DNA from: Klenkia taihuensis
Lineage (GTDB): Bacteria; Actinomycetota; Actinomycetes; Mycobacteriales; Geodermatophilaceae
Assembly (NCBI RefSeq): GCF_900112525.1
Contig: NZ_FOMD01000003.1
Location: 372,001-436,000 of the forward strand
DNA: 64,000 nt
Direction of reading: 5' to 3'
The notes under the pieces were generated by a model that searched no databases, was not told where the DNA came from, and saw only the letters and a program-made list of their open reading frames with translations. The stretch's first letter is position 1; every line of letters begins with the position of its first letter. This document shows, in pieces, positions 357 through 42,312 of the stretch. The position numbers and the translations under genes are program-made.

Positions 357-635
357 TCAACCCTCCTGCGTGGACCCCGCCACCGGACGCGGCGTGCGCA
401 GCACGGGGACCTCGCGCCCGCGCAGCTCACCGGCCCGCACGTGGTCGAGCACCAGGTCCAGCGCGGCGTCGGACAGCCGGGTCACCGAGCCGGTGTCCAC
501 CGCGTCGACCGGCACCGGCTCCCGGCCGTAGCGGGCGTGGAAGTCGGCCACCACGGATGGGTCGACGTCACCGGCCAGGCACAGCACGCCCCGACCCGAC
601 GTGTTCACCAGCCGCACCAGCCCGCGGGTCGCCAT
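357..635 (-). CDS. Small STAS-like hypothetical protein
   Basis: A 92-residue protein whose central part (GVLCLAGDVDPSVVADF, then an acidic stretch and a helix ending VLDHVRAGEL) resembles the beta-alpha pattern of STAS domains found in anti-sigma antagonists and MlaB-like proteins. The usual DSSG phospho-serine loop is not obvious, so the assignment is tentative. The ATG at 635 lies inside the 3' end of the upstream epimerase gene, a 68-nt overlap. GTG codons at 617 and 608 are alternative starts that shorten but do not remove the overlap. Confidence 0.6.
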   Translation of the reverse strand: MATRGLVRLVNTSGRGVLCLAGDVDPSVVADFHARYGREPVPVDAVDTGSVTRLSDAALDLVLDHVRAGELRGREVPVLRTPRPVAGSTQEG

Positions 636-1614
636 GGCCCGAGTGTCCCGCACCCGGTGCCGTGGACCGGAACCACGCGACCGCGCGGGCCAGCCCCTCC
701 GCCAGGCCGACCTCCGGTTCCCAGCCCAGCCGGGTGCGGATCGCGGTGATGTCCGGGCAGCGCACCGACGGGTCGTCCACCGGCCGGCCGACGAACTCCA
801 CGTCCGGCGGGACGCCGACCACCGCGGCCACCGCCCGGGCGATGTCGAGCACCGACCGCTCCTCGGGCAGCCCCACGTTGAACGGCCCCGGCAGGTCCGA
901 CCCGGCCACCGCGAGGATGCCGCGCACGGTGTCGTCGACGTAGCAGACCGAGCGGGTCTGGCTGCCGTCCCCGGCGACGGTCATCGGCTGCCCGGTCAGC
1001 GCCTGCGCGATGAACGTGGGGATGGCCCGGCCGTCGTCGCGGCGCATCCGCGGCCCGTAGGTGTTGAAGATCCGCACGATCGCGGTGTCCACCCCGTAGG
1101 CGTTGCGGTACGCGGTGGTCAGCGCCTCGCCGAAGCGCTTGGCCTCGTCGTAGACCCCGCGCGGGCCGACCGGGTTGACGTGCCCCCAGTAGCTCTCCGG
1201 CTGCGGGTGCACCTGCGGGTCGCCGTAGGTCTCCGACGTCGACGCCAGCACCATCCGCGCCCCGGTCCGGCGGGCGGCCTCCAGGGCGTGGCCGGTGCCG
1301 GCGCTGCCCACCCGCAGCGTCTCCACCGGCAGCCGCAGGTAGTCCGCGGGCGAGGCCGGCGAGGCCAGGTGCAGCACCAGGTCGACGTCGTCGCTGGTGG
1401 TGAACGGCGTGCTCACGTCGTGCCGGACGAAGGCGAAGCAGGGGTCGTCCCGCAGGTGCGCGACGTTGCCGCCGTCGCTGGTGGACAGGTCGTCCATGCA
1501 GGTCACCCGGGTGCCGGTGGCCAGCAGGCGCTCGCACAGGTGCGAGCCGAGGAACCCGGCGCCGCCGGTGACGACGGCGTGCCGGAAGGGGACGGCGGGC
1601 ACGGGCTGGGTCAT
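568..1614 (-). CDS. NAD-dependent sugar epimerase/decarboxylase, UDP-xylose synthase-like
   Basis: A 348-residue extended short-chain dehydrogenase/reductase. It has a Rossmann GGAGFLGS at residues 17-24, a TSETYGDP block near 126-133, SYWGHVNPVG at 141-150 and a catalytic YDEAK (Tyr155, Lys159). This combination is characteristic of UDP-glucuronate decarboxylase (UXS). Family knowledge predicts conversion of UDP-glucuronate to UDP-xylose in the cytosol. The last 30 residues are Gly/Arg-rich, unlike the family, and overlap the next gene. It is transcribed divergently from the heptose glycan operon, with 179 nt between. It could supply a pentose for that glycan or act on another sugar nucleotide; the enzyme class is firm, the substrate is not. 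Confidence 0.82.
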   Translation of the reverse strand: MTQPVPAVPFRHAVVTGGAGFLGSHLCERLLATGTRVTCMDDLSTSDGGNVAHLRDDPCFAFVRHDVSTPFTTSDDVDLVLHLASPASPADYLRLPVETLRVGSAGTGHALEAARRTGARMVLASTSETYGDPQVHPQPESYWGHVNPVGPRGVYDEAKRFGEALTTAYRNAYGVDTAIVRIFNTYGPRMRRDDGRAIPTFIAQALTGQPMTVAGDGSQTRSVCYVDDTVRGILAVAGSDLPGPFNVGLPEERSVLDIARAVAAVVGVPPDVEFVGRPVDDPSVRCPDITAIRTRLGWEPEVGLAEGLARAVAWFRSTAPGAGHSGHGDPRAGAAGEHVGSGRAVPGR

Positions 1615-1793
1615 GGCGGCGCCCACCGAGAGGGCGACCGCGTCTTCGAGCCGGGCCGACCGTAACCCGCCCCGGACGCCGACCGCGACCGGTCGACGTG
1701 CGGGACCCCCCGGGCCCGTGCTGTCATGAGCCGGCCGGTCGAACCTCGCGCTGAGCAGACCCCCGGGCCACCGGGTGATCCGCGAGGTGACAC

Positions 1794-3455
1794 GTGCGCG
1801 TCCTCGGCATCAACGCCCTCTTCCACGACCCCGCCGCGGCGGTCGTCGTCGACGGCCGGGTGGTCGCCGCGGCCGAGGAGGAGCGCTTCAGCCGCCGCAA
1901 GCACGGCAAGCGGCCGGTGCCGTTCTCCGCCTGGGAGACCCCCGACCAGGCCGCCGCCTGGTGCCTGGAGCACGCCGGGGTGCGCGCCGAGGACCTCGAC
2001 GCCGTCGCCTACTCCTACGACCCCGACCTGCACCTGGCGCCTGAGCAGGCCGGCGTGCACGACCCGTGGGACCACCTCCGGCTGACCTACGCCCGGCAGG
2101 CCCCCGGCTTCCTCGCCGAGGGCATCCCGGGGCTGGACCCCGACCGCGTCCGGTTCGTCCCGCACCACGTCGCGCACGCCGCCTCGGCCGCGCTGGCCGC
2201 GCCGTGGGGCGGCAGCTGCGCGGTCCTGGTGCTCGACGGCCGCGGCGAGCGGCACAGCTCGCTGGCCGGGGTCTACCGCGACGGCGTGCTCGAGGTGCTG
2301 GCCAGCCAGCAGCTGCCGCACTCCCTGGGCCTGCTCTACGAGGACGTCACCGCCCACCTGGGCTTCCTGCGCAGCTCCGACGAGTTCAAGGTGATGGCGC
2401 TGGCCTCCTACGGCCGGCCCCGCCACGCCGAGGCGCTGCGCACGCTGGTCCGCGCCACCGGGGACGGCGGGTTCACCACCGCCGGCGTCGACCTCGCCGC
2501 GCTGGCCAAGGCGCGCCGGCCCGACGAGCCGTGGACCGACGAGCACGCCGACCTGGCCGCCAGCGTGCAGCTGGTCGTCGAGGAGGTGCTGCTCGACCTC
2601 GCCCGCTGGCTGCGCGACGCCACCGGCGAGACCCGGCTGGCGCTGGCCGGCGGCGTGGCGCTGAACTGCGTGGCCAACACCCGTCTGGCCGCGGAGTCCG
2701 GGTTCGCCGACCTGTGGGTGCAGCCGGCCGCCGGGGACGCCGGGACGGCGCTGGGCGGTGCCCTGGAGCTGTCCTGGCGGGGCGGCGAGCCCACCGGGCC
2801 GTTCCCGGGCGCGGACCTCGGCCGCGGCTGGACCGACGAGGAGATCGGGGCCGTGCTGCGCACCGCACGGGTGGAACACCGGCGCAGCGACGACGTCGCC
2901 GACGAGGTGGCCCGGGTGCTCGCCGCCGACGGCGTGGTCGCCTGGTTCCAGGGCCGCAGCGAGTTCGGTCCGCGGGCGCTGGGCCACCGCTCGCTGCTCG
3001 CGCACCCCGGCCGGGCGGCCAACCTGGAGCGGCTCAACGACGTCAAGGGCCGCGAGCAGTTCCGCCCGGTCGCCCCGATGGTCCGGCTGGACCGGGCCGG
3101 CGAGATCTTCTCCCGGGGTCCGGTGCCCAGCCCGCACATGCTCTTCGTGCACGACGTCGCCCCCGCCTGGCGGGACCGCATCCCCGCCGTGGTGCACGTC
3201 GACGGCACCGCCCGCATCCAGTCCGTGGACCCCGCCACCGAGCCGCTCGTGGCGCGGATGCTCACCGCCTTCGAGGCGCGCACGGGCCTGCCGGTGGTGG
3301 TCAACACCAGCCTGAACACCGCGGGCCGGCCGATGGTCGACACGCCCCGGGACGCGCTGGAGTGCTTCGGCTCCGGCCCGGTCGACCTGCTCGCGATCGG
3401 CCCGTTCGTCGTGCACCGCTCGTGGGCCCACGAGGGGATGGCCGCCGATGGGTGA
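1794..3455 (+). CDS. Carbamoyltransferase, NodU/CmcH family
   Basis: A 553-residue protein starting at GTG 1794. Family landmarks are present: the N-terminal HHVAHA at residues 124-129, GGVALNCVAN at 286-295, and the C-terminal YrdC-like block GRSEFGPRALGHRS at 387-400. Members use carbamoyl phosphate and ATP to transfer a carbamoyl group to a hydroxyl of a sugar or antibiotic. Here it is the first gene of a ten-gene operon of heptose-activation enzymes and glycosyltransferases, so a sugar residue of a surface glycan, perhaps the heptose itself, is the likely acceptor. It overlaps the next gene by 8 nt. The family is certain; the acceptor is inferred. Confidence 0.9.
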   Translation: MRVLGINALFHDPAAAVVVDGRVVAAAEEERFSRRKHGKRPVPFSAWETPDQAAAWCLEHAGVRAEDLDAVAYSYDPDLHLAPEQAGVHDPWDHLRLTYARQAPGFLAEGIPGLDPDRVRFVPHHVAHAASAALAAPWGGSCAVLVLDGRGERHSSLAGVYRDGVLEVLASQQLPHSLGLLYEDVTAHLGFLRSSDEFKVMALASYGRPRHAEALRTLVRATGDGGFTTAGVDLAALAKARRPDEPWTDEHADLAASVQLVVEEVLLDLARWLRDATGETRLALAGGVALNCVANTRLAAESGFADLWVQPAAGDAGTALGGALELSWRGGEPTGPFPGADLGRGWTDEEIGAVLRTARVEHRRSDDVADEVARVLAADGVVAWFQGRSEFGPRALGHRSLLAHPGRAANLERLNDVKGREQFRPVAPMVRLDRAGEIFSRGPVPSPHMLFVHDVAPAWRDRIPAVVHVDGTARIQSVDPATEPLVARMLTAFEARTGLPVVVNTSLNTAGRPMVDTPRDALECFGSGPVDLLAIGPFVVHRSWAHEGMAADG

Positions 3456-4950
3456 GCCCGGGTACGCCGTCGTCGTCCCCACGCTGGGGCGGCCCTCGCT
3501 GCGCGTCCTGCTCGACGCGCTCGCCGCGGCCGACGGGCCGCGGCCGCAGTGGCTGGTCGTCGTGGACGACCGGCGGGAGCCGGGCGACGTCCCGGTGGTC
3601 GACGTCCGTGACCTGCCCCCGGACGTCGCCCGGCACGTGCTGGTGCTGCACGGCGGCGGACGCGGGCCGGCCGCCGCCCGCAACACCGGCTGGCGTGCCG
3701 TCCCGCCGGGCACGGCGTGGGTCGCCTTCCTCGACGACGACGTCGTGGTCGGCCCGCGCTGGTGCGCCGACCTGGCCGCCGACCTCGCCGACGCCGACCG
3801 GCACGGCATCGCCGGCACCCAGGCGGAGATCGACGTGCCGCTGCCGGCCGGGCGCCGGCCCACCGACTGGGAGCGCGGCACCGCGGGGCTGGCCACGGCG
3901 TGGTGGATCACCGCCGACATGGCCTACCGCCGCGACGTCCTGGCCGCCGTCGACGGGTTCGACGAGCGCTTCCCGCGCGCCTTCCGGGAGGACGCCGACC
4001 TCGCGCTGCAGGTGCAGGCCACCGGGCGCCGGCTGGTCGTCGGCCGGCGCCGCACCACCCACCCGGTCCGGCCCACCGGCCGCTGGACCAGCGTCCGCCA
4101 GCAGCGGGGCAACGCCGACGACGTGCTCATGGCCCGGTTGCACGGCCGGCTGTGGGGCGACCGCGCGCACGCCCCGGCCGGGCGACGCCCGCGCCACGTC
4201 GTCCTCACCGCCGCCGGGCTGGCCGCCCTGCTCCTGCGCAACCGCGCGGCGGCTGCGGTGTGGGCGCTGGGCACGGCCGAGTTCGCCTGGGCCCGGATCG
4301 CCCCGGGCCCGCGGGACCGCGCCGAGGTCACCACGATGCTGCTCACCAGCGCGGCGATCCCGCCGGCCGCGACCTGGTGGTGGCTGCGCGCGCTGGTCCG
4401 CCGCACCCCTCCCCGCCCGGTGCACGAGGCCCCGCGCACCACGGCGCTGCTGGCCGACCGGGACGGCACGCTGGTCGTCGACGTCCCGTACAACGGCGAC
4501 CCGGCGCGGGTGCGGCCCGTCGACGGCGCGGTCGAGGCGGTGCGGGCGGCCCGGGAGGCCGGGCTGCCGGTGGGCGTGGTGACCAACCAGTCGGGCCTGG
4601 CCCGCGGCGCGTTCACCGCCCGCGACCTGGCCGCGGTGCACGACCGGGTCGAGGAGCTGCTCGGCCCCTTCGACGCCTGGGCGGTCTGCCTGCACGGGCC
4701 CGAGGACGGCTGCTCCTGCCGCAAGCCCGAGCCCGGGTCGGTGCTCGCCGCGGCGGCCGTCCTCGGCGTCGAGCCGGCCGAGTGCGTCCTCGTCGGGGAC
4801 ATCTGGTCCGACGTCGTCGCGGCGCAGGCCGCCGGCGCCCGCGGGGTGCTGGTGCCCACCGACGAGACCCGCACCGCCGAGCTGGCCGCCGCCCCCGCCG
4901 TCGCCCGCGACCTGGCCACCGCGGTCGCGCTGGTGGTGGGGCAGCGGTGA
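3448..4950 (+). CDS. Fused glycosyltransferase family 2 / GmhB-type heptose bisphosphatase
   Basis: A 500-residue two-domain protein. Residues 5-230 form a GT2 domain with the metal-binding LDDD at 95-98 and a late FREDADL acceptor-loop motif near 179-185. Residues 331-495 form a HAD phosphatase with DRDGTL (Asp337, Asp339), TNQSG at 379-383 and the zinc ligands of GmhB (Cys404, His406, Cys422, Cys424). GmhB removes the 7-phosphate from D-glycero-D-manno-heptose 1,7-bisphosphate, the step between the two HldE activities. GmhB is normally a free protein of about 190 residues, so fusion to a glycosyltransferase is unusual. It overlaps its neighbours by 8 and 4 nt, inside the heptose operon. Confidence 0.88.
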   Translation: MGEPGYAVVVPTLGRPSLRVLLDALAAADGPRPQWLVVVDDRREPGDVPVVDVRDLPPDVARHVLVLHGGGRGPAAARNTGWRAVPPGTAWVAFLDDDVVVGPRWCADLAADLADADRHGIAGTQAEIDVPLPAGRRPTDWERGTAGLATAWWITADMAYRRDVLAAVDGFDERFPRAFREDADLALQVQATGRRLVVGRRRTTHPVRPTGRWTSVRQQRGNADDVLMARLHGRLWGDRAHAPAGRRPRHVVLTAAGLAALLLRNRAAAAVWALGTAEFAWARIAPGPRDRAEVTTMLLTSAAIPPAATWWWLRALVRRTPPRPVHEAPRTTALLADRDGTLVVDVPYNGDPARVRPVDGAVEAVRAAREAGLPVGVVTNQSGLARGAFTARDLAAVHDRVEELLGPFDAWAVCLHGPEDGCSCRKPEPGSVLAAAAVLGVEPAECVLVGDIWSDVVAAQAAGARGVLVPTDETRTAELAAAPAVARDLATAVALVVGQR

Positions 4951-5951
4951 GCCGGGCCCTGGTGGTGCGGCTGGACTCCCTCGGCGACGTCGTCGTGTGC
5001 GGGCCGGCGGTCCGGGCGGTGGCCGCGGGGTCGGCCTCGACCACGGTGCTGGCCGGGCCGCGCGGCGCCGAGGTCGCCCGGCTGCTGCCCGGCGTGGACG
5101 ACGTCGAGGTGTTCGACGCGCCGTGGATCTCCGCCGGCGCCGGGCCGGTCGACCCCGCCGCGACGGCGGCCCTCGTCGACCGGCTGCGCGGGCGGTTCGA
5201 CACCGCGCTGGTGCTCACCTCCTTCCACCAGAGCGCGCTGCCCACCGCCCTGCTGCTCCGGCTCGCCGGGGTGCCCCGGGTGGCCGCCGTCAGCACCGAC
5301 TTCCCGGGCTCGCTGCTCGACGTCCGGCTGCCCGAGCCGGCCGACGCGCCCGAGCCGGTGCGCATGCTCGCGGTCGCCGCCGGGGCCGGGTACGCCCTGC
5401 CGCCCGGGGACGACGGCCGGCTCGCGCTGGTCGACGGGCTGCCCCCGGTGGCCGGCCTGCCCGACCGCTACGTGGTGGTGCACCCCGGCGCCGACGCGCC
5501 CGCCCGCAGCTACCCGCCCGAGCGGTGGCGGGCGGTGGTGCTCGCCCTCGCCGGCCGCGGTCTGCCCGTGGTGGTCACCGGCGGGCCGGACGAGCGCGCG
5601 CTCACCTCCGTCGTCGCCGCCGACCACGGCGTGGACCTGGGCGCCCGGCTGACCGTCGCCGAGCTCGCCGCCGTGCTGCGGGGGGCCGACGCCGTCGCCG
5701 TCGGCAACACCGGCCCGGCGCACCTGGCCGCCGCCGTCGGCGCCCCGGTGGTGAGCCTGTTCTCCCCGGTCGTGCCGGCCCTGCGGTGGGCGCCGCACAC
5801 CGACCACCGGGTGATCCTCGGGGACCAGCACGCCGCCTGCGCCGGCAGCCGGGCCCGGGTCTGCCCGCTGCCCGGCCACCCCTGCCTGGCCGGCGTCGAC
5901 CCGGCCGACGTGGTCGAGGGCGTGGCGCGGCTGGTGGGGGTGCGGGCATGA
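4947..5951 (+). CDS. Glycosyltransferase family 9, heptosyltransferase-like (first copy)
   Basis: A 334-residue protein starting at GTG 4947 in a GTGA overlap with the upstream stop. The N-terminus VRLDSLGDVVVCGPAVRA is the LGD motif of ADP-heptose:LPS heptosyltransferases. The C-terminal half has HPGADAPARSYPPERW and GNTGPAHLAAAVGAPVVSLFSP, the nucleotide-sugar binding region of GT9. A cysteine-containing segment near the end (CAGSRARVCPLPGHPC) is a further feature. The presence of gmhA-, gmhB- and hldE-like genes in the same operon supports an ADP-heptose donor. The acceptor is unknown and is unlikely to be LPS in this Gram-positive. Confidence 0.87.
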   Translation: MSRALVVRLDSLGDVVVCGPAVRAVAAGSASTTVLAGPRGAEVARLLPGVDDVEVFDAPWISAGAGPVDPAATAALVDRLRGRFDTALVLTSFHQSALPTALLLRLAGVPRVAAVSTDFPGSLLDVRLPEPADAPEPVRMLAVAAGAGYALPPGDDGRLALVDGLPPVAGLPDRYVVVHPGADAPARSYPPERWRAVVLALAGRGLPVVVTGGPDERALTSVVAADHGVDLGARLTVAELAAVLRGADAVAVGNTGPAHLAAAVGAPVVSLFSPVVPALRWAPHTDHRVILGDQHAACAGSRARVCPLPGHPCLAGVDPADVVEGVARLVGVRA

Positions 5952-6898
5952 ACGTCCTGGTCTGGCACGTGCACGGGTCCTGGCTCACCGCCGTCGTGCA
6001 GGGCGGGCACCGCTACCTGGTCCCGGTGGTCCCCGGGCGCACCGGCGACGGGCTGGGCCGGGCGCGCACCTGGGACTGGCCCGCCTCGGTGGTCGAGGTG
6101 ACCCCCGAGCAGGTGCGCGACGCCGGGGTGGACGTCGTGCTGCTGCAGCGGCCGCGGGACCTGGAGCTGCTGCGGCAGTGGGCCGGGTGGGAGGCCGGCG
6201 TCGACGTCCCGGCGCTGTACGTCGAGCACGACACCCCGCCGACCCCGGCCGGCAGCCGGCACCTGCTCGCCGACCGCACCGACGTGCCGCTGGTGCACGT
6301 CACCCACTTCAACCGGGTCGCGTGGGACAACGGGTGCGCCCCCACCCGGGTGCTCGAGCACGGCGTCCCCGACCCCGGTCCGCGGTGGACCGGCGAGCTG
6401 CCCCGGGTCTCGGTGGTCAGCAACGAGCCGCTGCGCCGGGGGCGCACCGTCGGCACCGACCTGCTGCCGCACTTCGCCCCCTTCGGCGTCGACCTGTTCG
6501 GCATGCAGGTCACCGGCGCGTCGGGCGCCCTGGGCACGGCGGTCCGCGAGTTCGAGGACCTGCCCCAGCACGCCCTGCACGACGAGGTCGCCCGGCGCCG
6601 GGTCCACCTGCACCTCACGCGGTGGACCTCGCTGGGCCTGTCCCTGGTGGAGGCGATGACGATGGGCTGCCCGGTGGTGGTGCTCGCGACGACGGAGGCC
6701 CCGACCGCCGTCCCGGACGGGGCCGGCGTGGTGGCCTCGGACGTCGAGGCGCTGGTGGACGCCGTCCGCTGGTTCCTGGCCGACCCCGACTCCGCCCGCG
6801 CCGCCGGGCAGGTCGCCCGGGCCGCCGCGCTGGAGCGGTTCGGGCTCGACCGGTTCCTCGCCGACCTCGACGGCCTGCTCGCCGAGGTGGCCCGGTGA
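5948..6898 (+). CDS. Glycosyltransferase, GT4/GT1-like
   Basis: A 316-residue protein starting at ATG 5948 (ATGA overlap). The N-terminal half has an EHDTPP motif and a VTHFNRVAWDNG stretch. The C-terminal half has LTRWTSLGLSLVEAMTMGCPVVVLATTEAP, the E-x7-E-like sugar-nucleotide binding region of GT-B glycosyltransferases. No signal peptide or membrane helix is visible, so it should act on the cytoplasmic face. Position in the operon suggests it adds one sugar of the heptose-containing glycan. The donor sugar cannot be read from the sequence. Confidence 0.8.
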   Translation: MNVLVWHVHGSWLTAVVQGGHRYLVPVVPGRTGDGLGRARTWDWPASVVEVTPEQVRDAGVDVVLLQRPRDLELLRQWAGWEAGVDVPALYVEHDTPPTPAGSRHLLADRTDVPLVHVTHFNRVAWDNGCAPTRVLEHGVPDPGPRWTGELPRVSVVSNEPLRRGRTVGTDLLPHFAPFGVDLFGMQVTGASGALGTAVREFEDLPQHALHDEVARRRVHLHLTRWTSLGLSLVEAMTMGCPVVVLATTEAPTAVPDGAGVVASDVEALVDAVRWFLADPDSARAAGQVARAAALERFGLDRFLADLDGLLAEVAR

Positions 6899-8097
6899 GG
6901 GTCGACCTGGTCAGCGAGCACGCCAGCCCGCTGGCCACCCTGGGCGGCGAGGACGCCGGCGGGCAGAACGTGCACGTGGCGATGCTGGCCCGCGCGCTCG
7001 CCGCCCGCGGCCACGACGTCGTCGTGCACACCCGCCGGGACGACGTCGACCTCCCGCCCGCCGTGGACTTCGCCCCCGGCGTCGTCGTGCGGCACCTGGA
7101 CGCCGGGCCGCCCAAGGAGGTGCCCAAGGACCAGCTCTGGCCGCACGTCCCCGAGCTGGCCGCCGCGCTGCGCACCGAGCTGCTGGCCGACCCGCCCGAC
7201 GTGGTGCACGCGCACTTCTGGATGAGCGGCCGGGCCGCCGTCGACGCCGCGCACGGCCTGGGCGTGCCGGTGGCGCAGACCTTCCACGCGCTGGGCTCGG
7301 TCAAGCGCCGGTGGCAGGGCACGGCCGACACCAGCCCACCGGTGCGCATCCGGGTGGAGACCGCGGTCGCCCGCCGCGCCGCCGGGGTGATCGCCACCTG
7401 CGCCGACGAGGTCGACGAGCTGGCCGCCCTCGGCGTCGACCGGCGCAAGGTCACCGTCGTCCCCAGCGGCGTGGACACCGGCGCCTTCACCCCCGACGGG
7501 CCGCGGGTGCCCCGCGCCGGCCGGCCCCGGCTGCTGGTGGTGGGCCGGCTGGTGCCGCGCAAGGGCCTGGGCGACGTGCTCACCGCGCTGGCCGACGTCC
7601 CCGGCGCCGAGCTCGTCGTGCTGGGCGGCCCGGCCGCCGAGGTGCTGGCCGCCGACCCCGCCGCCGCCCAGGTGCAGGCGGCCGCGGCCGCCCGCGGCGT
7701 CGCCGACCGGGTCCGGCTGGTCGGCCGCGGCGGCCGCGAGGAGGTGGCGGCCTGGGTCCGCTCGGCCGACGTCGTGGTCTGCGCACCCTGGTACGAGCCG
7801 TTCGGCATCGTGCCGCTGGAGGCGATGGCCTGCGGCGTGCCGGTCGTGGGCACCGGGGTCGGCGGGCTCACCGACACCGTCGTGGACGGCGGCACCGGCC
7901 TGCTCGTCCCGCCGCGCGACCCGGCGGCGCTGGCCGCGGCGCTGCGCACGCTGCTCACCGACCCCGCCCTCGGCCGGCGGCTCGGCGCCGCCGGCCGGGA
8001 GCGCGTCGTCACCACCTACGACTGGCAGGAGGTCGCCCGCATGACCGAGGACGCCTACCGACGGCTGCCCCGCCCGCGCCCGGCGGTGGCCCGGTGA
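6895..8097 (+). CDS. Glycosyltransferase family 4 (MshA/sucrose-synthase-like)
   Basis: A 400-residue GT-B protein starting at GTG 6895 (GTGA overlap). It has the N-terminal GGEDAGGQNVHVAMLARALA loop of the MshA/sucrose-phosphate-synthase type, a central GVDTGAFTP, a KGLGD segment and the C-terminal donor-binding EPFGIVPLEAMACGVPVVGT. Such enzymes usually use UDP- or GDP-sugars with retention of configuration. The setting between a GT4/GT1-like gene and gmhA points to glycan assembly rather than mycothiol synthesis. It is not likely to be MshA itself, because nothing else of the mycothiol pathway is nearby. Confidence 0.85.
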   Translation: MRVDLVSEHASPLATLGGEDAGGQNVHVAMLARALAARGHDVVVHTRRDDVDLPPAVDFAPGVVVRHLDAGPPKEVPKDQLWPHVPELAAALRTELLADPPDVVHAHFWMSGRAAVDAAHGLGVPVAQTFHALGSVKRRWQGTADTSPPVRIRVETAVARRAAGVIATCADEVDELAALGVDRRKVTVVPSGVDTGAFTPDGPRVPRAGRPRLLVVGRLVPRKGLGDVLTALADVPGAELVVLGGPAAEVLAADPAAAQVQAAAAARGVADRVRLVGRGGREEVAAWVRSADVVVCAPWYEPFGIVPLEAMACGVPVVGTGVGGLTDTVVDGGTGLLVPPRDPAALAAALRTLLTDPALGRRLGAAGRERVVTTYDWQEVARMTEDAYRRLPRPRPAVAR

Positions 8098-8693
8098 CCC
8101 GCCCGCCGACGCCGGTGGGCGCCGAGCACGTGCAGCACCTGACCACCGCGCTGGCCGCGTCCGCGCCGGCCGTGGCCACCGCAACCCGGTGGAGCCGGGA
8201 GCTGGCCGGGCTGCTGACCGGCGGGGCCCGCCTGGTCGCCGCGGGCAACGGCGGCAGCGCCGCGCAGGCCGCGCACCTCACCGCCGAGCTGGTCGGCCGC
8301 TACCGCGACGACCGGCGCCCGTTCTCCGCGGTGGCGCTGCACGCCGAGGTGTCCGCGCTGACCGCGATCACCAATGACTACGGCCACGAGGAGGGCTTCG
8401 CCCGGCAGCTGGAGGCGCACACCCGGCCCGGCGACGTCGCCGTCCTGCTCTCCACCTCCGGCGGCAGCCCGAACGTGGTGGAGGCGGCGCGCCGGGCCCG
8501 GGCCGGCGGGGTCACCTGCTGGGCGATGACCGGCCGCGGGCCCAATGCGCTCACCGAGGTCGCCGACGACGCGCTCACCGTCGCCTCCCCGTTCACCGCC
8601 ACCGTGCAGGAGGTGCACCTGGTGCTGCTGCACGTGCTGTGCGCGGGCCTGGACGCCGAGCTCGACGCCCGCCTGCTGGCCGGTGCGCCGTGA
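8094..8693 (+). CDS. gmhA: Sedoheptulose-7-phosphate isomerase (SIS domain)
   Basis: A 199-residue single SIS-domain protein starting at GTG 8094 (GTGA overlap). The phosphosugar loop GNGGSAAQA is at residues 51-59, a second loop STSGGSPN at 120-127, and the late QEVHLVLLH at 171-179 holds the His used by GmhA. Glu65 in TAELVGRY matches the catalytic glutamate region. GmhA converts sedoheptulose 7-phosphate into D-glycero-D-manno-heptose 7-phosphate, the first committed step of ADP-heptose synthesis. DiaA is a close non-enzymatic relative, but the HldE-like gene directly downstream (4-nt overlap) and the GmhB domain upstream make GmhA much more likely. Confidence 0.9.
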   Translation: MTRPPTPVGAEHVQHLTTALAASAPAVATATRWSRELAGLLTGGARLVAAGNGGSAAQAAHLTAELVGRYRDDRRPFSAVALHAEVSALTAITNDYGHEEGFARQLEAHTRPGDVAVLLSTSGGSPNVVEAARRARAGGVTCWAMTGRGPNALTEVADDALTVASPFTATVQEVHLVLLHVLCAGLDAELDARLLAGAP

Positions 8694-9991
8694 GGACGCT
8701 GGTCGTGGTCGGGGACACCCTGCTCGACGTCGACACCGACGGCCGGGCCGAGAAGCTCTCGCCCGACGGCCCGGTGCCGGTGGTGCGGGCCGACGCCGAG
8801 AGCACCCGGGCCGGCGGCGCGGGCCTGGTGGCCGCGGTGGCCGCGGTGGCCGCGCTGGCCGCGGGCGGCGGACGGGTCGTGCTGGTCACCCCGCTGGCCG
8901 ACGACGCCGACGGCGCCACCCTGCGGTCGGTGCTGCCGGCCGGGGTCGAGCTGGTCCCGCTGCCCTGGGCCGGCAGCACCCCGGTCAAGCACCGCATCCG
9001 GGCCGGCGGGCAGACCGTGGCCCGGGTCGACCGCGGTGGGGAGCCCGGCCCGGTCGGCCCGCTGCCCGGTGCGGTGGCCACCGTGCTCGCCGGGGCCGAC
9101 GCCGTGGTGGTCGCGGACTACGGCCTGGGCGCCACCGCCGACCCGGAGCTGCGCGGCCTGCTCACCGCGGTGGCCCGGCGCCGCCCGGTGGTCTGGGACC
9201 CGCACCCCCGCGGCGCCCCGCCGGTGCCCGGTTGCCGGCTGGTCACCCCGAACGCGGTCGAGGCCCTGGGCGCCGACCCGGGCCCGCGGCCCGACGTCGG
9301 CGCGGTCGCCGACCGCGCGCTGGCGCTGCGCGCGGAGTGGGCCGCCGGCACCGTCGCGGTCACCCTCGGCGCGGCCGGCGCGCTGGCCACGGTGGGGGAG
9401 GACGGCGTGCTGGCCGTGCCCGCCCCGGCCGTGGACGCCGGCGACGCCTGCGGCGCCGGGGACGCGTTCGCCGCCGCCGCGGGCTGGGCGCTGGCCGGGG
9501 GCGCGCTGCCCCCGGAGGCGGTGGCCGCCGCGGTGCGGGCCGCCTCCGCGCACGTCGCCGCGCCCGCGCCGGCGCCGACCGGCGGCGGGGTGCTGGTCGC
9601 CACCGGTGGCTGCTTCGACCTGCTGCACGCCGGCCACGTCGCCACCCTGGAGGCCGCCCGCGCGCTGGGCGACCGGCTGGTGGTGTGCGTCAACTCCGAC
9701 GCCTCGGTCACCCGGCTCAAGGGCCCGGGCCGGCCGCTGCAGCCGCAGGCCGACCGGGTGCGCATCCTGCGTGCGCTGGGCTGCGTCGACGACGTCGTGG
9801 TCTTCGACGAGGACACCCCGGAGCAGGTGCTGCGCGGCCTGCGCCCGCAGCTGTGGGTCAAGGGCGGCGACTACTCCGGCGTCGCCGTCCCCGAGGCCGC
9901 CGTCCTCGCCGGCTGGGGCGGCCGGGTGGTCACCGTGCCGTTCCTGGCCGGCCGGTCCACCACCGCGCTCGCCGAGCTGGCCCGGGCATGA
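8690..9991 (+). CDS. hldE: Bifunctional heptose 7-phosphate kinase / heptose 1-phosphate adenylyltransferase
   Basis: A 433-residue protein starting at GTG 8690. Residues 1-295 form a PfkB (ribokinase) domain with GAGLVAAVAAVAAL near 43-56 and the catalytic GAGDAF at 255-260. Residues 300-433 form a cytidylyltransferase-like domain with CFDLLHAGHV (HxGH at 313-316), RLKGPGRP near 342-349 and WVKGGDY near 389-395. The order matches E. coli HldE. It should phosphorylate heptose 7-phosphate at C1 and, after GmhB removes the 7-phosphate, add AMP to give ADP-D-glycero-beta-D-manno-heptose. The domain is slightly shorter than the 477 residues of E. coli HldE but all motifs are kept. Confidence 0.92.
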   Translation: MRTLVVVGDTLLDVDTDGRAEKLSPDGPVPVVRADAESTRAGGAGLVAAVAAVAALAAGGGRVVLVTPLADDADGATLRSVLPAGVELVPLPWAGSTPVKHRIRAGGQTVARVDRGGEPGPVGPLPGAVATVLAGADAVVVADYGLGATADPELRGLLTAVARRRPVVWDPHPRGAPPVPGCRLVTPNAVEALGADPGPRPDVGAVADRALALRAEWAAGTVAVTLGAAGALATVGEDGVLAVPAPAVDAGDACGAGDAFAAAAGWALAGGALPPEAVAAAVRAASAHVAAPAPAPTGGGVLVATGGCFDLLHAGHVATLEAARALGDRLVVCVNSDASVTRLKGPGRPLQPQADRVRILRALGCVDDVVVFDEDTPEQVLRGLRPQLWVKGGDYSGVAVPEAAVLAGWGGRVVTVPFLAGRSTTALAELARA

Positions 9992-10899
9992 GCACCTGCG
10001 TCGTGCTGCGGGCCATCGGCCTGGGCGACATGGTCACCGGCCTGCCCGCCCTCGCCCTGCTGCGCCGCCGGCTCCCCGGCTGGCGGGTGGTGCTGGGCGC
10101 GCCGGTGCGGTTCACCGAGGTGCTGTGCGGCTCCGGGCTGGTCGACGACGTCGTCCCCGTCGAGCACCTCGACCACGTGACCGGCCTGCCCGGGCGGCCC
10201 GACCTCGCCGTCGACCTGCACGGCAACGGCCCGGCGTCCAAGGCGCCCCTCCTGGCGCTGCGCCCGGGCCGGTGCGTGGGCTTCGCGCTCGGGCCGGCCC
10301 CGGACCGGTCGGTGTGGGACGACGACGAGCACGAGGTCGACCGCTGGTGCCGGCTGGTCGCCGAGCAGCTGGGCGGCCCGGCCACCCCGCCGCCGCTGGC
10401 CGGCCTGCTGCCGGTGCCGCCGGCGATCCGTCCCGGGTCGACCGTGGTGCACCCCGGGGCGGCGGCCCGGTCCCGCCGGTGGCCGGCGCAGCGGTGGGCC
10501 GCGGTGGCGGACGCGCTGCGCGGGGCCGGCCACCGGGTCGTGGTCACCGGGACGGCGGAGGAGCGGTCGCTGGTCGACGCGGTCGCCGACGGCGCACCGG
10601 CCCTGGTCGACCTCTCGGTGCAGGAGCTGTGCGGGCTGGTCGCCGCCGCCCGGCTGGTGCTGTCCGGCGACACCGGGACCGCGCACGTGGCCGCGGTGTT
10701 CGGCCGGCCGTCGGTGGTGCTCAGCGGGCCGGTGCCGCCCAGCCGCTGGGGTCCCCCGGTGCACCCCCGGCACCGCGTGCTCTGGCCGGCCGACGACCCC
10801 GGCTACCGCGGGGACCCGCACGGCGGCGAGGTGGACCCGGTGCTGCTGCGCACCACGGTCGCCGACGTGCTGGCCGCGGCCGCGGAGGTGGGACCATGA
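9988..10899 (+). CDS. Glycosyltransferase family 9, heptosyltransferase-like (second copy)
   Basis: A 303-residue GT9 protein starting at ATG 9988 (ATGA overlap with hldE). It has the N-terminal LRAIGLGDMVTGLPAL motif, DLHGNGPASK in the acceptor domain, VVHPGAAARSRRWPAQRW and the donor-site SGDTGTAHVAAVFGRPSVVL. It differs clearly from the copy at 4947-5951, so the two probably make different linkages, like WaaC and WaaF in Gram-negatives. It directly follows hldE, which supports an ADP-heptose donor. Confidence 0.87.
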   Translation: MSTCVVLRAIGLGDMVTGLPALALLRRRLPGWRVVLGAPVRFTEVLCGSGLVDDVVPVEHLDHVTGLPGRPDLAVDLHGNGPASKAPLLALRPGRCVGFALGPAPDRSVWDDDEHEVDRWCRLVAEQLGGPATPPPLAGLLPVPPAIRPGSTVVHPGAAARSRRWPAQRWAAVADALRGAGHRVVVTGTAEERSLVDAVADGAPALVDLSVQELCGLVAAARLVLSGDTGTAHVAAVFGRPSVVLSGPVPPSRWGPPVHPRHRVLWPADDPGYRGDPHGGEVDPVLLRTTVADVLAAAAEVGP

Positions 10900-11828
10900 C
10901 GGGCCTCGCGGACCGGCTCACGGTGGTCCTGCTGACCCACGACTGCGCAGCGTGGCTCCCGCACACCCTGGACCGCCTCGCCGAGCTGGACCTGCCGGTG
11001 GTCGCGGTGGACAACGCCTCCACCGACGGCACCCGCGAGCTGCTGGCCGACCGGCCCTGGGTGAGGGTGCGCGCGCTGCCCACCAACACCGGCGCGGCCG
11101 GGCGGACCGAGGGCGTGCGGGCCGCGACCACGCCCTACGTCGTCTTCTGCGACGACGACGGCTGGTGGGAGCGGCCCGGCCTGGAGCGCGCCGTCGCCCT
11201 GCTGGACGCCCACCCCCGGCTGGCCCTGGTGAACGCCCGCATCGTGGTCGGCGACGAGCAGGCGCCGGACCCCATCTCGACCGAGATGGCGGCCAGCCCG
11301 CTGCCCGAGACCGAGGGCGTCCCCGGCACCGTGCTGCTCAGCTTCATGGGCGGGGCCGCGGTCGTGCGGGTGGCCGCCTACGAGCAGGTCGGCGGGTACG
11401 CCCCGGAGTTCACCATCGGCGGGGAGGAGGAGACGCTGGCCCACCCGCTGCTGCGGGAGGGCTGGCTGATGCGCTACGTCGACGACGTCGTCATGCACCA
11501 CCACCCGAGCCTGGCCAACCACAGCCGGATCCGGCACTGGGGCCTGCGCAACACGCTCTGGAACGCCTGGCTGCACCGGCCCCGGCGCAGCGCACTGCGC
11601 TGGACGGTGTTCGTGCTGCGCTCGGCCCCGCGGGACGCCGACCTGGTCCGCGGCGTGCTGCTGGCGCTGCGCGGAGTGCCCTGGGTGCTGGCCCGCCGCC
11701 GGCCGCTGCCCGACGACGTCGACGCCGGGCTGCGGGTGCTCGAGGAGCGGCGGTTCGCCGCGTGGGACGTCGCCCGGCTGGCCGGCCTCCCCGCCGGCTC
11801 GGCGCCGAAGTACCCGGTGACCCGGTGA
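10896..11828 (+). CDS. Glycosyltransferase family 2
   Basis: A 310-residue GT-A protein starting at ATG 10896. Features are LTVVLLTHDCAAWLPHTLDRL at the start, VDNASTDGT near residue 43, the metal-binding CDDDGWWE near 88-95 and a late GGEEETLAHPLLREGW acceptor motif. A run of basic residues follows RHWGLRNTLWNAWLHRPRR, typical of membrane-associated rhamnosyl- or glycosyltransferases. No transmembrane helix is evident. It is probably an inverting enzyme for the glycan encoded by the operon; the donor is unknown. Confidence 0.85.
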   Translation: MTGLADRLTVVLLTHDCAAWLPHTLDRLAELDLPVVAVDNASTDGTRELLADRPWVRVRALPTNTGAAGRTEGVRAATTPYVVFCDDDGWWERPGLERAVALLDAHPRLALVNARIVVGDEQAPDPISTEMAASPLPETEGVPGTVLLSFMGGAAVVRVAAYEQVGGYAPEFTIGGEEETLAHPLLREGWLMRYVDDVVMHHHPSLANHSRIRHWGLRNTLWNAWLHRPRRSALRWTVFVLRSAPRDADLVRGVLLALRGVPWVLARRRPLPDDVDAGLRVLEERRFAAWDVARLAGLPAGSAPKYPVTR

Positions 11829-12694
11829 GGGTGCTCGTGGTGGGCTGGTTCAGCTTCACCGAGGTCATCGCCACCGTGGGCGACGAGCGCGCCGCCGAGG
11901 TGGTGACCGGCTGGCTGGCCCGGGCCGGCATCGCGCACGACGTGGCGTGGGCGCGCTACCTGGACCGGGGCGTCGACCACGCCCGGGTCGACCCGGCCGG
12001 CTACACGCACCTGGTGTGGGTGTGCGGGCCGCTGCTGGGCGACCCGCTGGTGGAGGGCCTGCTCCGGCGGTTCGCGCACACCCGCCGGCTGGCCGTCGGG
12101 GTGTCGGTGGTGGACCCGGCGACGGCCGCGCGGTTCGGCGCCGTCTGGCCGCGGGACGCCCCCGGCTGCCCGCCGCGCCCCGACCTGGCCATCGACCCGC
12201 CCGGCGACGGCCCGGCCGTCGTCGCCACCGTGTTCGCCCCCGTCCAGCCCGAGTACGGCGACCGCGGCCGGCACGCCCAGGTGCAGGCCGTCGTGGAGCG
12301 GTGGGTCGCCGACCGCGGGCTGGGGTCCTTCGACGTCGGCACCGACCTGCTCACGCCCTCCGGGCAGCGGCGGCGCGTGGGGCAGGTGCAGGCCGTGCTG
12401 GGCCGCGCCGACGTCGTGGTCAGCTCCCGGCTGCACGGGCTGGTGCTCGGTCTGGGCCGCGGCCGGCCGGTGATCGCCGTCGACCCCGTCGTCGGCGGCG
12501 CCAAGGTCAGCGCGCAGGCGGCGGCGCTGGGCTGGCCGGTGCTGCTGGCCGCCGACGAGGTGGACGCCGCCGCCCTGGACGCCGCCCTGGACCGCTGCCT
12601 GCTGCCCGCCGAGCCGGTGCTGCCGGCCTGGGCCGAGGTCGCGCGCTCGGCCGCCGACCAGCGGGCGCGGCTGGTCGCCGCCCTGGCCGGTTGA
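11825..12694 (+). CDS. Polysaccharide pyruvyl transferase family protein
   Basis: A 289-residue protein starting at GTG 11825 (GTGA overlap) and the last gene of the operon. The C-terminal SSRLHGLVLGLGRGRPVIAVDPVVGGAKVSAQ region, roughly residues 200-235, is the hallmark of the CsaB/WcaK polysaccharide pyruvyltransferase family. The N-terminal half is shorter and more diverged than in CsaB. Family members add a pyruvate ketal to a sugar from phosphoenolpyruvate, giving negative charge and S-layer binding ability. With the carbamoyltransferase at the other end, this suggests a glycan with non-sugar decorations. Confidence 0.75.
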   Translation: MRVLVVGWFSFTEVIATVGDERAAEVVTGWLARAGIAHDVAWARYLDRGVDHARVDPAGYTHLVWVCGPLLGDPLVEGLLRRFAHTRRLAVGVSVVDPATAARFGAVWPRDAPGCPPRPDLAIDPPGDGPAVVATVFAPVQPEYGDRGRHAQVQAVVERWVADRGLGSFDVGTDLLTPSGQRRRVGQVQAVLGRADVVVSSRLHGLVLGLGRGRPVIAVDPVVGGAKVSAQAAALGWPVLLAADEVDAAALDAALDRCLLPAEPVLPAWAEVARSAADQRARLVAALAG

Positions 12695-42149: not shown

Positions 42150-42312
42150 CGCCGTCGAGTCACCGCCGTGGGCAGCGTCGCCCGGGGCACCAGGTGAACC
42201 GGGGACCCACTGCAGCACCGGGGTGAATCCCGTCGGGACCGCACTGCGCGGCGACGACGGGTAGGGCTCCTTCCCGCCCGAACCCGTCAGCTAACCCGGT
42301 AGACGGTTGCAC
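42150..42312 (+). ncRNA. Cyclic-di-AMP riboswitch (ydaO/yuaA type)
   Basis: The leader holds the invariant blocks of the ydaO/yuaA aptamer in order: GTGAACCGGGGACCCA near 42194-42209, GGGGTGAATCC near 42220-42230, and GGGTAGGG, then CTTCCCGCCCGAACCCGTC and AGCTAACC between about 42259 and 42298. Such riboswitches bind c-di-AMP and usually turn off cell-wall-hydrolase genes in actinobacteria, for example rpfA in Streptomyces. The aptamer ends about 50 nt before the ATG at 42364. The whole 325-nt gap 42039-42363 is taken up by this element and its promoter. Confidence 0.93.

Follow-up and report, generated by a model that had tools for sequence, protein, structure and literature searches.

The window analysed here, a 64,000-nucleotide stretch of Klenkia taihuensis DNA, raises the question of what genes resembling those for the activated heptose of lipopolysaccharide would make in a Gram-positive bacterium. 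Inspection of its open reading frames (ORFs) revealed ten at positions 1794-12694, all on the + strand and back to back, with an overlap of 8 nt at the junction of 1794-3455 with 3448-4950 and of 4 nt at the remaining eight junctions, in full agreement with the first-pass annotation, whose gene labels were also upheld by Pfam, the pyruvyltransferase label being the weakest. Absent from that annotation is a divergent gene at 568-1626 (− strand), which resembles UDP-xylose synthase (UXS) and is part of the unit as its eleventh member, so that the block extends from 568 to 12694 (Table 1). By gene content and order, this eleven-gene block is a cwg-type ("cell wall glycan") operon.

Correspondence with the cwg operon

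The cwg operon of Streptomyces coelicolor, SCO6179-SCO6190, is controlled by σE (Hong et al. 2002, as cited in PMC6767563 and PMC5839063) and is induced by vancomycin through this factor (PMC6767563). In its passage on the operon, a paper on ArgR lists in order the transferases cwgB and cwgC, a "dehydratase" cwgD, further transferases, the phosphoheptose isomerase cwgH, the bifunctional cwgI and the transferase cwgJ (PMC5839063), and cwgE has been called a putative heptosyl transferase (PMC5882110). A surface or cell wall glycan is the published prediction for cwg (PMC6767563), with which the surface glycan proposed in the first-pass annotation agrees. The main text of that paper makes no mention of "heptose", and the passages naming the operon in PMC5839063, PMC3902916, PMC6767563, PMC13011467 and PMC5882110 give no structure for the product, which the literature searched describes as a putative cell wall glycan and nothing further.

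Comparison with cwg was made through a relative, Streptomyces coelicoflavus (locus L172), in place of the S. coelicolor genome. The L172 cluster comprises twelve genes, in the order UXS, carbamoyltransferase (CBM), GT2, HAD, GT9, GTx, GT4, GmhA, HldE, GT9, GT2 and GT2; it adjoins a divergent gene whose product we read as NodB-like, as described for SCO6178, and the DNA upstream of it could be matched by eye to the published cwg promoter at 26 of 29 bases. The window block has the same gene set and order, UXS-CBM-GT2-HAD-GT9-GTx-GT4-GmhA-HldE-GT9-GT2, with several differences. UXS is divergent in the window but leads the operon in cwg; GT2 and GmhB are fused in the window but encoded by separate adjacent genes in Streptomyces; one GT2 gene follows the second GT9 gene (GT9b) in the window, compared to two in S. 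coelicoflavus; a pyruvyltransferase-like gene lies inside the window operon; and no NodB-like deacetylase gene adjoins it. A search for the σE pattern AAC-N16-18-[CG]GTC found no match at 1627-1793; the same pattern also misses 15 of 15 Streptomyces loci, L172 included, and over the whole window it gave nine matches versus 5.2 expected. At gathering thresholds, Rfam matched the window only once, with a c-di-AMP riboswitch (RF00379, 57 bits) at 42198-42300 on the + strand.

Table 1. Members of the cwg-type block in the window, with their predicted functions
Predicted function	Position	Strand	cwg counterpart	Remarks
UXS-like, UDP-glucuronate decarboxylase / UDP-xylose synthase	568..1626	−	cwgA	Divergent
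O-carbamoyltransferase (CBM), NodU/TobZ type	1794..3455	+	cwgB	PF16861 and PF02543
GT2 glycosyltransferase fused to GmhB-type HAD phosphatase	3448..4950	+	cwgC, cwgD
GT9 heptosyltransferase-like protein a (GT9a)	4947..5951	+	cwgE	PF01075, 79.9 bits
GT-B glycosyltransferase (GTx)	5948..6898	+	cwgF	PF00534, 38.4 bits (cut-off 26.4)
GT4 glycosyltransferase	6895..8097	+	cwgG	PF00534/PF13439
GmhA-like sedoheptulose 7-phosphate isomerase	8094..8693	+	cwgH	SIS domain, PF13580
HldE-like kinase and nucleotidyltransferase	8690..9991	+	cwgI	PfkB and cytidylyltransferase domains; FLAGRSTT near C-terminus
GT9 heptosyltransferase-like protein b (GT9b)	9988..10899	+	cwgJ	PF01075, 71.8 bits
GT2 glycosyltransferase (GT2b)	10896..11828	+	cwgK/cwgL (one copy)	PF00535, 74 bits
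Polysaccharide pyruvyltransferase-like protein (PST)	11825..12694	+		Optional member; PF04230 at cut-off

Predicted precursor, transferase and tailoring enzymes

The block encodes homologs of the enzymes for all steps that lead from sedoheptulose 7-phosphate to NDP-D-glycero-D-manno-heptose. In searches of the PDB, GmhA matched solved phosphoheptose isomerases at 128 bits and DiaA at 86 bits, and the nucleotidyltransferase half of HldE matched 5x9q at 132 bits, whereas the kinase half reached just 56 bits with a solved heptose 7-phosphate kinase; the HAD half scored 75 bits with a putative HAD hydrolase and 73 bits with D,D-heptose 1,7-bisphosphate phosphatase. The catalytic motifs are kept across orthologs: G[AC]GD.F in 63/63 and H.GH in 61/63 HldE ORFs, GNGGSA in 84 and QE.H....H in 78 of 85 GmhA ORFs, and DRDGT and C.H...C.CRKP (metal and catalytic residues) in all 19 aligned GT2-GmhB proteins. 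The GT9 motif was found in 67/89 GT9a and 69/71 GT9b ORFs, counts that take in truncated ORFs.

All of these proteins fall below the NCBIfam equivalog cut-offs: GmhA scored 145 of the 209 bits of TIGR00441, GmhB 115 of 178, the HldE kinase 113 of 345 and the HldE nucleotidyltransferase about 174-176.7 of 181.5 (TIGR02199, a cut-off passed in 34 of the 296 genomes of a phylum sample). Comparison of both GT9 copies with WaaC/WaaF, as suggested in the first-pass annotation, left them far from the LPS heptosyltransferase (WaaC/WaaF/WaaQ) equivalog, at 64.8 (GT9a) and 62.5 (GT9b) of 185.3 bits, even though both match the Pfam GT9 family; GT9a matched heptosyltransferase I structures at 33 bits. Because the equivalog cut-offs are missed, the substrates named here for GmhA, HldE, GmhB and the GT9 proteins are predicted ones. 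Among the other transferases, GTx has weak matches only in the PDB, and the GT4 protein is MshA-like, far under the MshA cut-off (TIGR03449, 221 versus 462.5 bits).

The claim of motifs for ADP-heptose synthesis thus stands for the pathway steps but is not secure for the nucleotide. According to a published commentary (PMC11461863) on the work of Tang et al. 2024, Arg at the FLAGRSTT position lets HldE use CTP or UTP; the window HldE carries FLAGRSTT with this Arg, which makes the label "ADP" unsafe and suggests that the enzyme is possibly NTP-promiscuous. At this position, 24 of 63 HldE orthologs have Arg and 25 have His, and 14 lack STT in the last 60 residues. Elsewhere in the genome, a 189-aa open frame resembles the HldE nucleotidyltransferase domain (G000, C9:60128-60532, 93 bits), and in one relative (G008) roughly 4 kb separates two HldE-like genes, L087:8334-9737 and L087:13713-15053, the second in a cwg-type cluster.

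No HldD epimerase gene is present in the block. The adjacent epimerase-like gene at 568-1626 was ruled out as HldD, scoring 66 versus the 274.6 bits required by TIGR02197, and UXS proved to be the closest family, its protein matching human UXS1 structures at 323 bits and the next family at 157 bits (phmmer). Near the same cluster, three relatives' loci (L092, L100 and L101) carry an extra gene of one family, and the L101 copy, the sole one scanned, encodes a TuaD-type nucleotide sugar dehydrogenase (UDP-glucose dehydrogenase); the window's genome encodes a TuaD-like UDP-glucose dehydrogenase elsewhere. Together, the UXS and dehydrogenase genes make UDP-xylose a likely second precursor. A stretch of contig C7 of the same genome (G000) at about 600-640 kb, not part of the window, is probably an exopolysaccharide region: it contains a UDP-glucose dehydrogenase-type gene, two phosphoglycosyltransferase genes, flippase-like and Wzy-like matches below threshold and, at C7:602960-603340, a lone HldE-nucleotidyltransferase-like gene.

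The first-pass annotation had proposed a carbamoylated or pyruvylated glycan, of which the carbamoyltransferase label held, with matches of 287 bits to PDB entry 7xb6 and 252 bits to TobZ. Pyruvylation is the weakest claim: PF04230 scored 25.3 bits in the last protein (11825-12694), exactly the cut-off of 25.3, and the pyruvyltransferase-like gene is optional in the family. PF04230 was nevertheless matched by 12/12 scanned orthologs at E<=0.1. The last protein had no PDB match at E<=0.1 and scored 18.7 of 213.1 bits against the CsaB model, and its predicted structure has middling confidence (pLDDT 69).

Distribution, joint presence and history

An alignment-based scan found relatives of the GT2-GmhB protein in at least 593 places, and of the best 80 of these, 78 had actinobacterial titles; the other two, L123 and L161, place cwg genes in MAGs whose contigs bear the labels Methylomirabilota and Eremiobacterota, reflecting transfer or misbinning. 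We compared these 80 loci, picked by the GT2-GmhB protein, with 40 others picked by HldE, many loci in both sets being cut by contig ends. GT9a, GT4, GmhA and HldE accompany GT2-GmhB (the core five) in 62/80 loci of the first set and 36/40 of the second, and where GTx is present as well, the six genes follow the window's order on one strand in 46/59 and 30/33 loci, respectively, so the search of other genomes proposed in the first-pass annotation found this six-gene order widely kept. The remaining families are more variable, with UXS in 48, CBM in 62, GT9b in 62, GT2b in 35 and PST in 14 of the 80 loci, compared to 27, 17, 34, 9 and 4 of the 40; all eleven families occurred in one locus in 11/80 and 3/40 cases. 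GT2 and GmhB are encoded by two ORFs in 22 of 112 loci and by one long ORF in 54, the rest being cut or uncalled. Between HldE and GT9b, many cwg loci of other actinobacteria also encode a short-chain dehydrogenase with a length near 225 aa (e.g. L121:16772-17449); this member of most other loci is missing from the window block, as it is from the loci seen in Streptomyces and in other Geodermatophilaceae. An unusual or new arrangement was ruled out, since the operon is widespread and matches cwg gene for gene.

Within Geodermatophilaceae, we scored 112 genomes for HldE (E<1e-40) and CBM (E<=1e-100). HldE was found at any strength in 104 genomes and strongly in 96, and both proteins were found in 94 genomes, HldE only in 2, CBM only in 4 and neither in 12. 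Among the 96 genomes at least 90% complete, these counts were 87, 0, 1 and 8 (Fisher p 7e-11), and among the 88 outside the window's genus 83, 0, 1 and 4 (p 2e-6); for HldE and UXS, they were 85, 2, 2 and 7 (p 1e-7), a disagreement in 4/96 genomes, and 81, 2, 2 and 3 without the window's genus (p 9e-4), all of these p values being too small because the genomes are related. The main cwg locus type of the family (17 loci, L068-L084) has GT2-GmhB, GT9a, GTx, GT4, GmhA, HldE and GT9b ordered as in the window, with UXS near, but unlike the window it has no CBM gene within the 18-19 kb examined, no GT2b and no pyruvyltransferase-like gene. Conversely, in ten stray CBM loci of the family, neither another cwg gene nor any glycan gene was recognised among the neighbours. 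Because CBM is unlinked in the 17 main-type loci and in these ten, the link between HldE and CBM is not mere neighbourhood: HldE, CBM and UXS tend to occur or be missing together, even when CBM is unlinked. Between GT9b and UXS, the 17 main-type loci also encode a convergent protein of about 520-560 aa that appears by eye to be VWA-type.

In contrast to its near-universal presence in the family's other genera, the block is patchy in the window's own genus. It is present in four of nine genomes (G000, the window's genome, G371, G375 and G378) and missing from G372, G373, G374, G376 and G377, of which G377 is only 73% complete. One site is common to G000, G371 and G378, with the G375 block elsewhere; the site is empty in G372 and G373, where the two flanking genes are adjacent, the flanks are separated by one small ORF in G376, and they were not recognised in G374. 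In a tree built from six genes of 38 of 107 loci, grouping the genus in one clade with the family's main locus type was rejected (AU p 0.005) and grouping it with Streptomyces was not (p 0.24), for clades chosen after viewing the first tree and with odd composition flagged in some rows, including the window's. In this tree the genus falls among Actinoplanes, Kineococcus and Cellulomonas types (SH-aLRT 97), while in the CBM tree it stands next to Streptomyces (support 0.67), joined by G332 from a different genus. These results suggest that the window's genus likely gained the block horizontally, its placement differing between the two trees.

Proposed product and comparison with known systems

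Considering gene content, conservation and the published prediction for cwg together, we judge it probable that the block makes an envelope glycan containing heptose, probably xylose, and O-carbamoyl groups. UXS would convert UDP-glucuronate to UDP-xylose; the two GT9, GT4, GTx and GT2 proteins would assemble a short heptose-containing and probably xylose-containing glycan in the cytoplasm; and the NodU/TobZ-type enzyme would O-carbamoylate it, with the last protein perhaps adding pyruvyl groups. Export would depend on machinery encoded elsewhere, after which the glycan would join the cell envelope, as proposed for cwg.

The block itself contains no exporter, transporter, polymerase or lipid-carrier transferase gene. 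A crude hydropathy scan found seven ORFs with at least seven predicted membrane segments at a distance of no more than 3.5 kb from the operon. They come from 7 of the 112 loci in which an operon ORF was recognised, ORFs of any kind having been called in 115 of 121 loci; four of the seven form two similar pairs (25-26% and 34-36% identity) and the remaining three match none. No conserved exporter adjoining the locus was thus found, in a scan that is no proof of absence because ORF calling lost genes in some loci. A truncated window was rejected as the explanation, on the basis of the upstream DNA and of this incomplete scan. The lack of an exporter gene noted in the first-pass annotation is not peculiar to the window, being general in relatives' loci as far as the scan goes. 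Flippase (PF01943), Wzy/ligase (PF04932) and phosphoglycosyltransferase (PF02397) families point to no partner, because they are present in cwg-plus and cwg-minus genomes alike among the nine of the genus; the PF01943 and PF04932 matches in the window's genome are under the curated cut-off.

Actinobacterial heptose antibiotics such as septacidin and hygromycin B are known, and the block could instead make a specialised metabolite, in the form of a small glycoside that is secreted or stays inside the cell, and no wall glycan. The carbamoyltransferase is of the antibiotic-tailoring type (novobiocin, GdmN, TobZ), the bleomycin cluster likewise pairs HldE-like, GT9-like and carbamoyltransferase genes, and a block that is mobile and patchy in the genus would suit such a role. 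We consider this unlikely, since the block has no aglycone-making genes and its presence in nearly all genomes of the family's other genera (HldE in 104/112 family genomes), with conservation across the phylum, better fits a standing envelope function, as does the induction of cwg by vancomycin. It is rather improbable that the GmhA, HldE and GmhB homologs use another sugar phosphate, giving a glycan free of heptose: every equivalog cut-off is missed and the kinase domain lies at 56 bits from the solved heptokinase, but all four proteins, from isomerase to nucleotidyltransferase, have their counterparts in a single pathway and are found together, and heptose enzymes are the best solved matches of GmhA and among the best of GmhB. 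Protein glycosylation, with heptosylated or xylosylated surface proteins as the product, appears very improbable. A heptose form exists in other bacteria, and the block lacks a polymerase and a ligase; yet at least five different glycosyltransferases suggest an oligosaccharide, and none of the genes seen in the block encodes an oligosaccharyltransferase.

Beyond the probable envelope glycan of the window, we tentatively propose, at somewhat less than even chances, that the cwg product is an O-carbamoylated D,D-heptose/xylose oligosaccharide made with an NTP-promiscuous HldE (CDP- or UDP- besides ADP-heptose), and a common actinobacterial envelope component. To our knowledge, no operon of the Streptomyces response to cell-envelope stress was linked to a predicted glycan before cwg, and the order and shared presence of the heptose genes, UXS and the carbamoyltransferase now suggest a concrete composition to look for. 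If the proposal is true, the window's genus holds natural plus and minus strains for the cwg glycan. The operon family was already known; added here are the membership of UXS, the coupling with unlinked CBM, the possible NTP promiscuity and the natural plus/minus genus.

Two other systems share parts of this enzymology. The ADP-heptose pathway for the LPS inner core, with WaaC/WaaF, has homologous isomerase, kinase, phosphatase and nucleotidyltransferase steps and the same GT9 fold family, but the window differs in having no HldD in the block, scores under the equivalog cut-offs, an HldE of the FLAGRSTT type and a Gram-positive context. The septacidin and hygromycin B pathways have the actinobacterial use of sedoheptulose 7-phosphate in common with the predicted pathway; in contrast to them, the window block contains no aglycone genes and belongs to an operon conserved phylum-wide.
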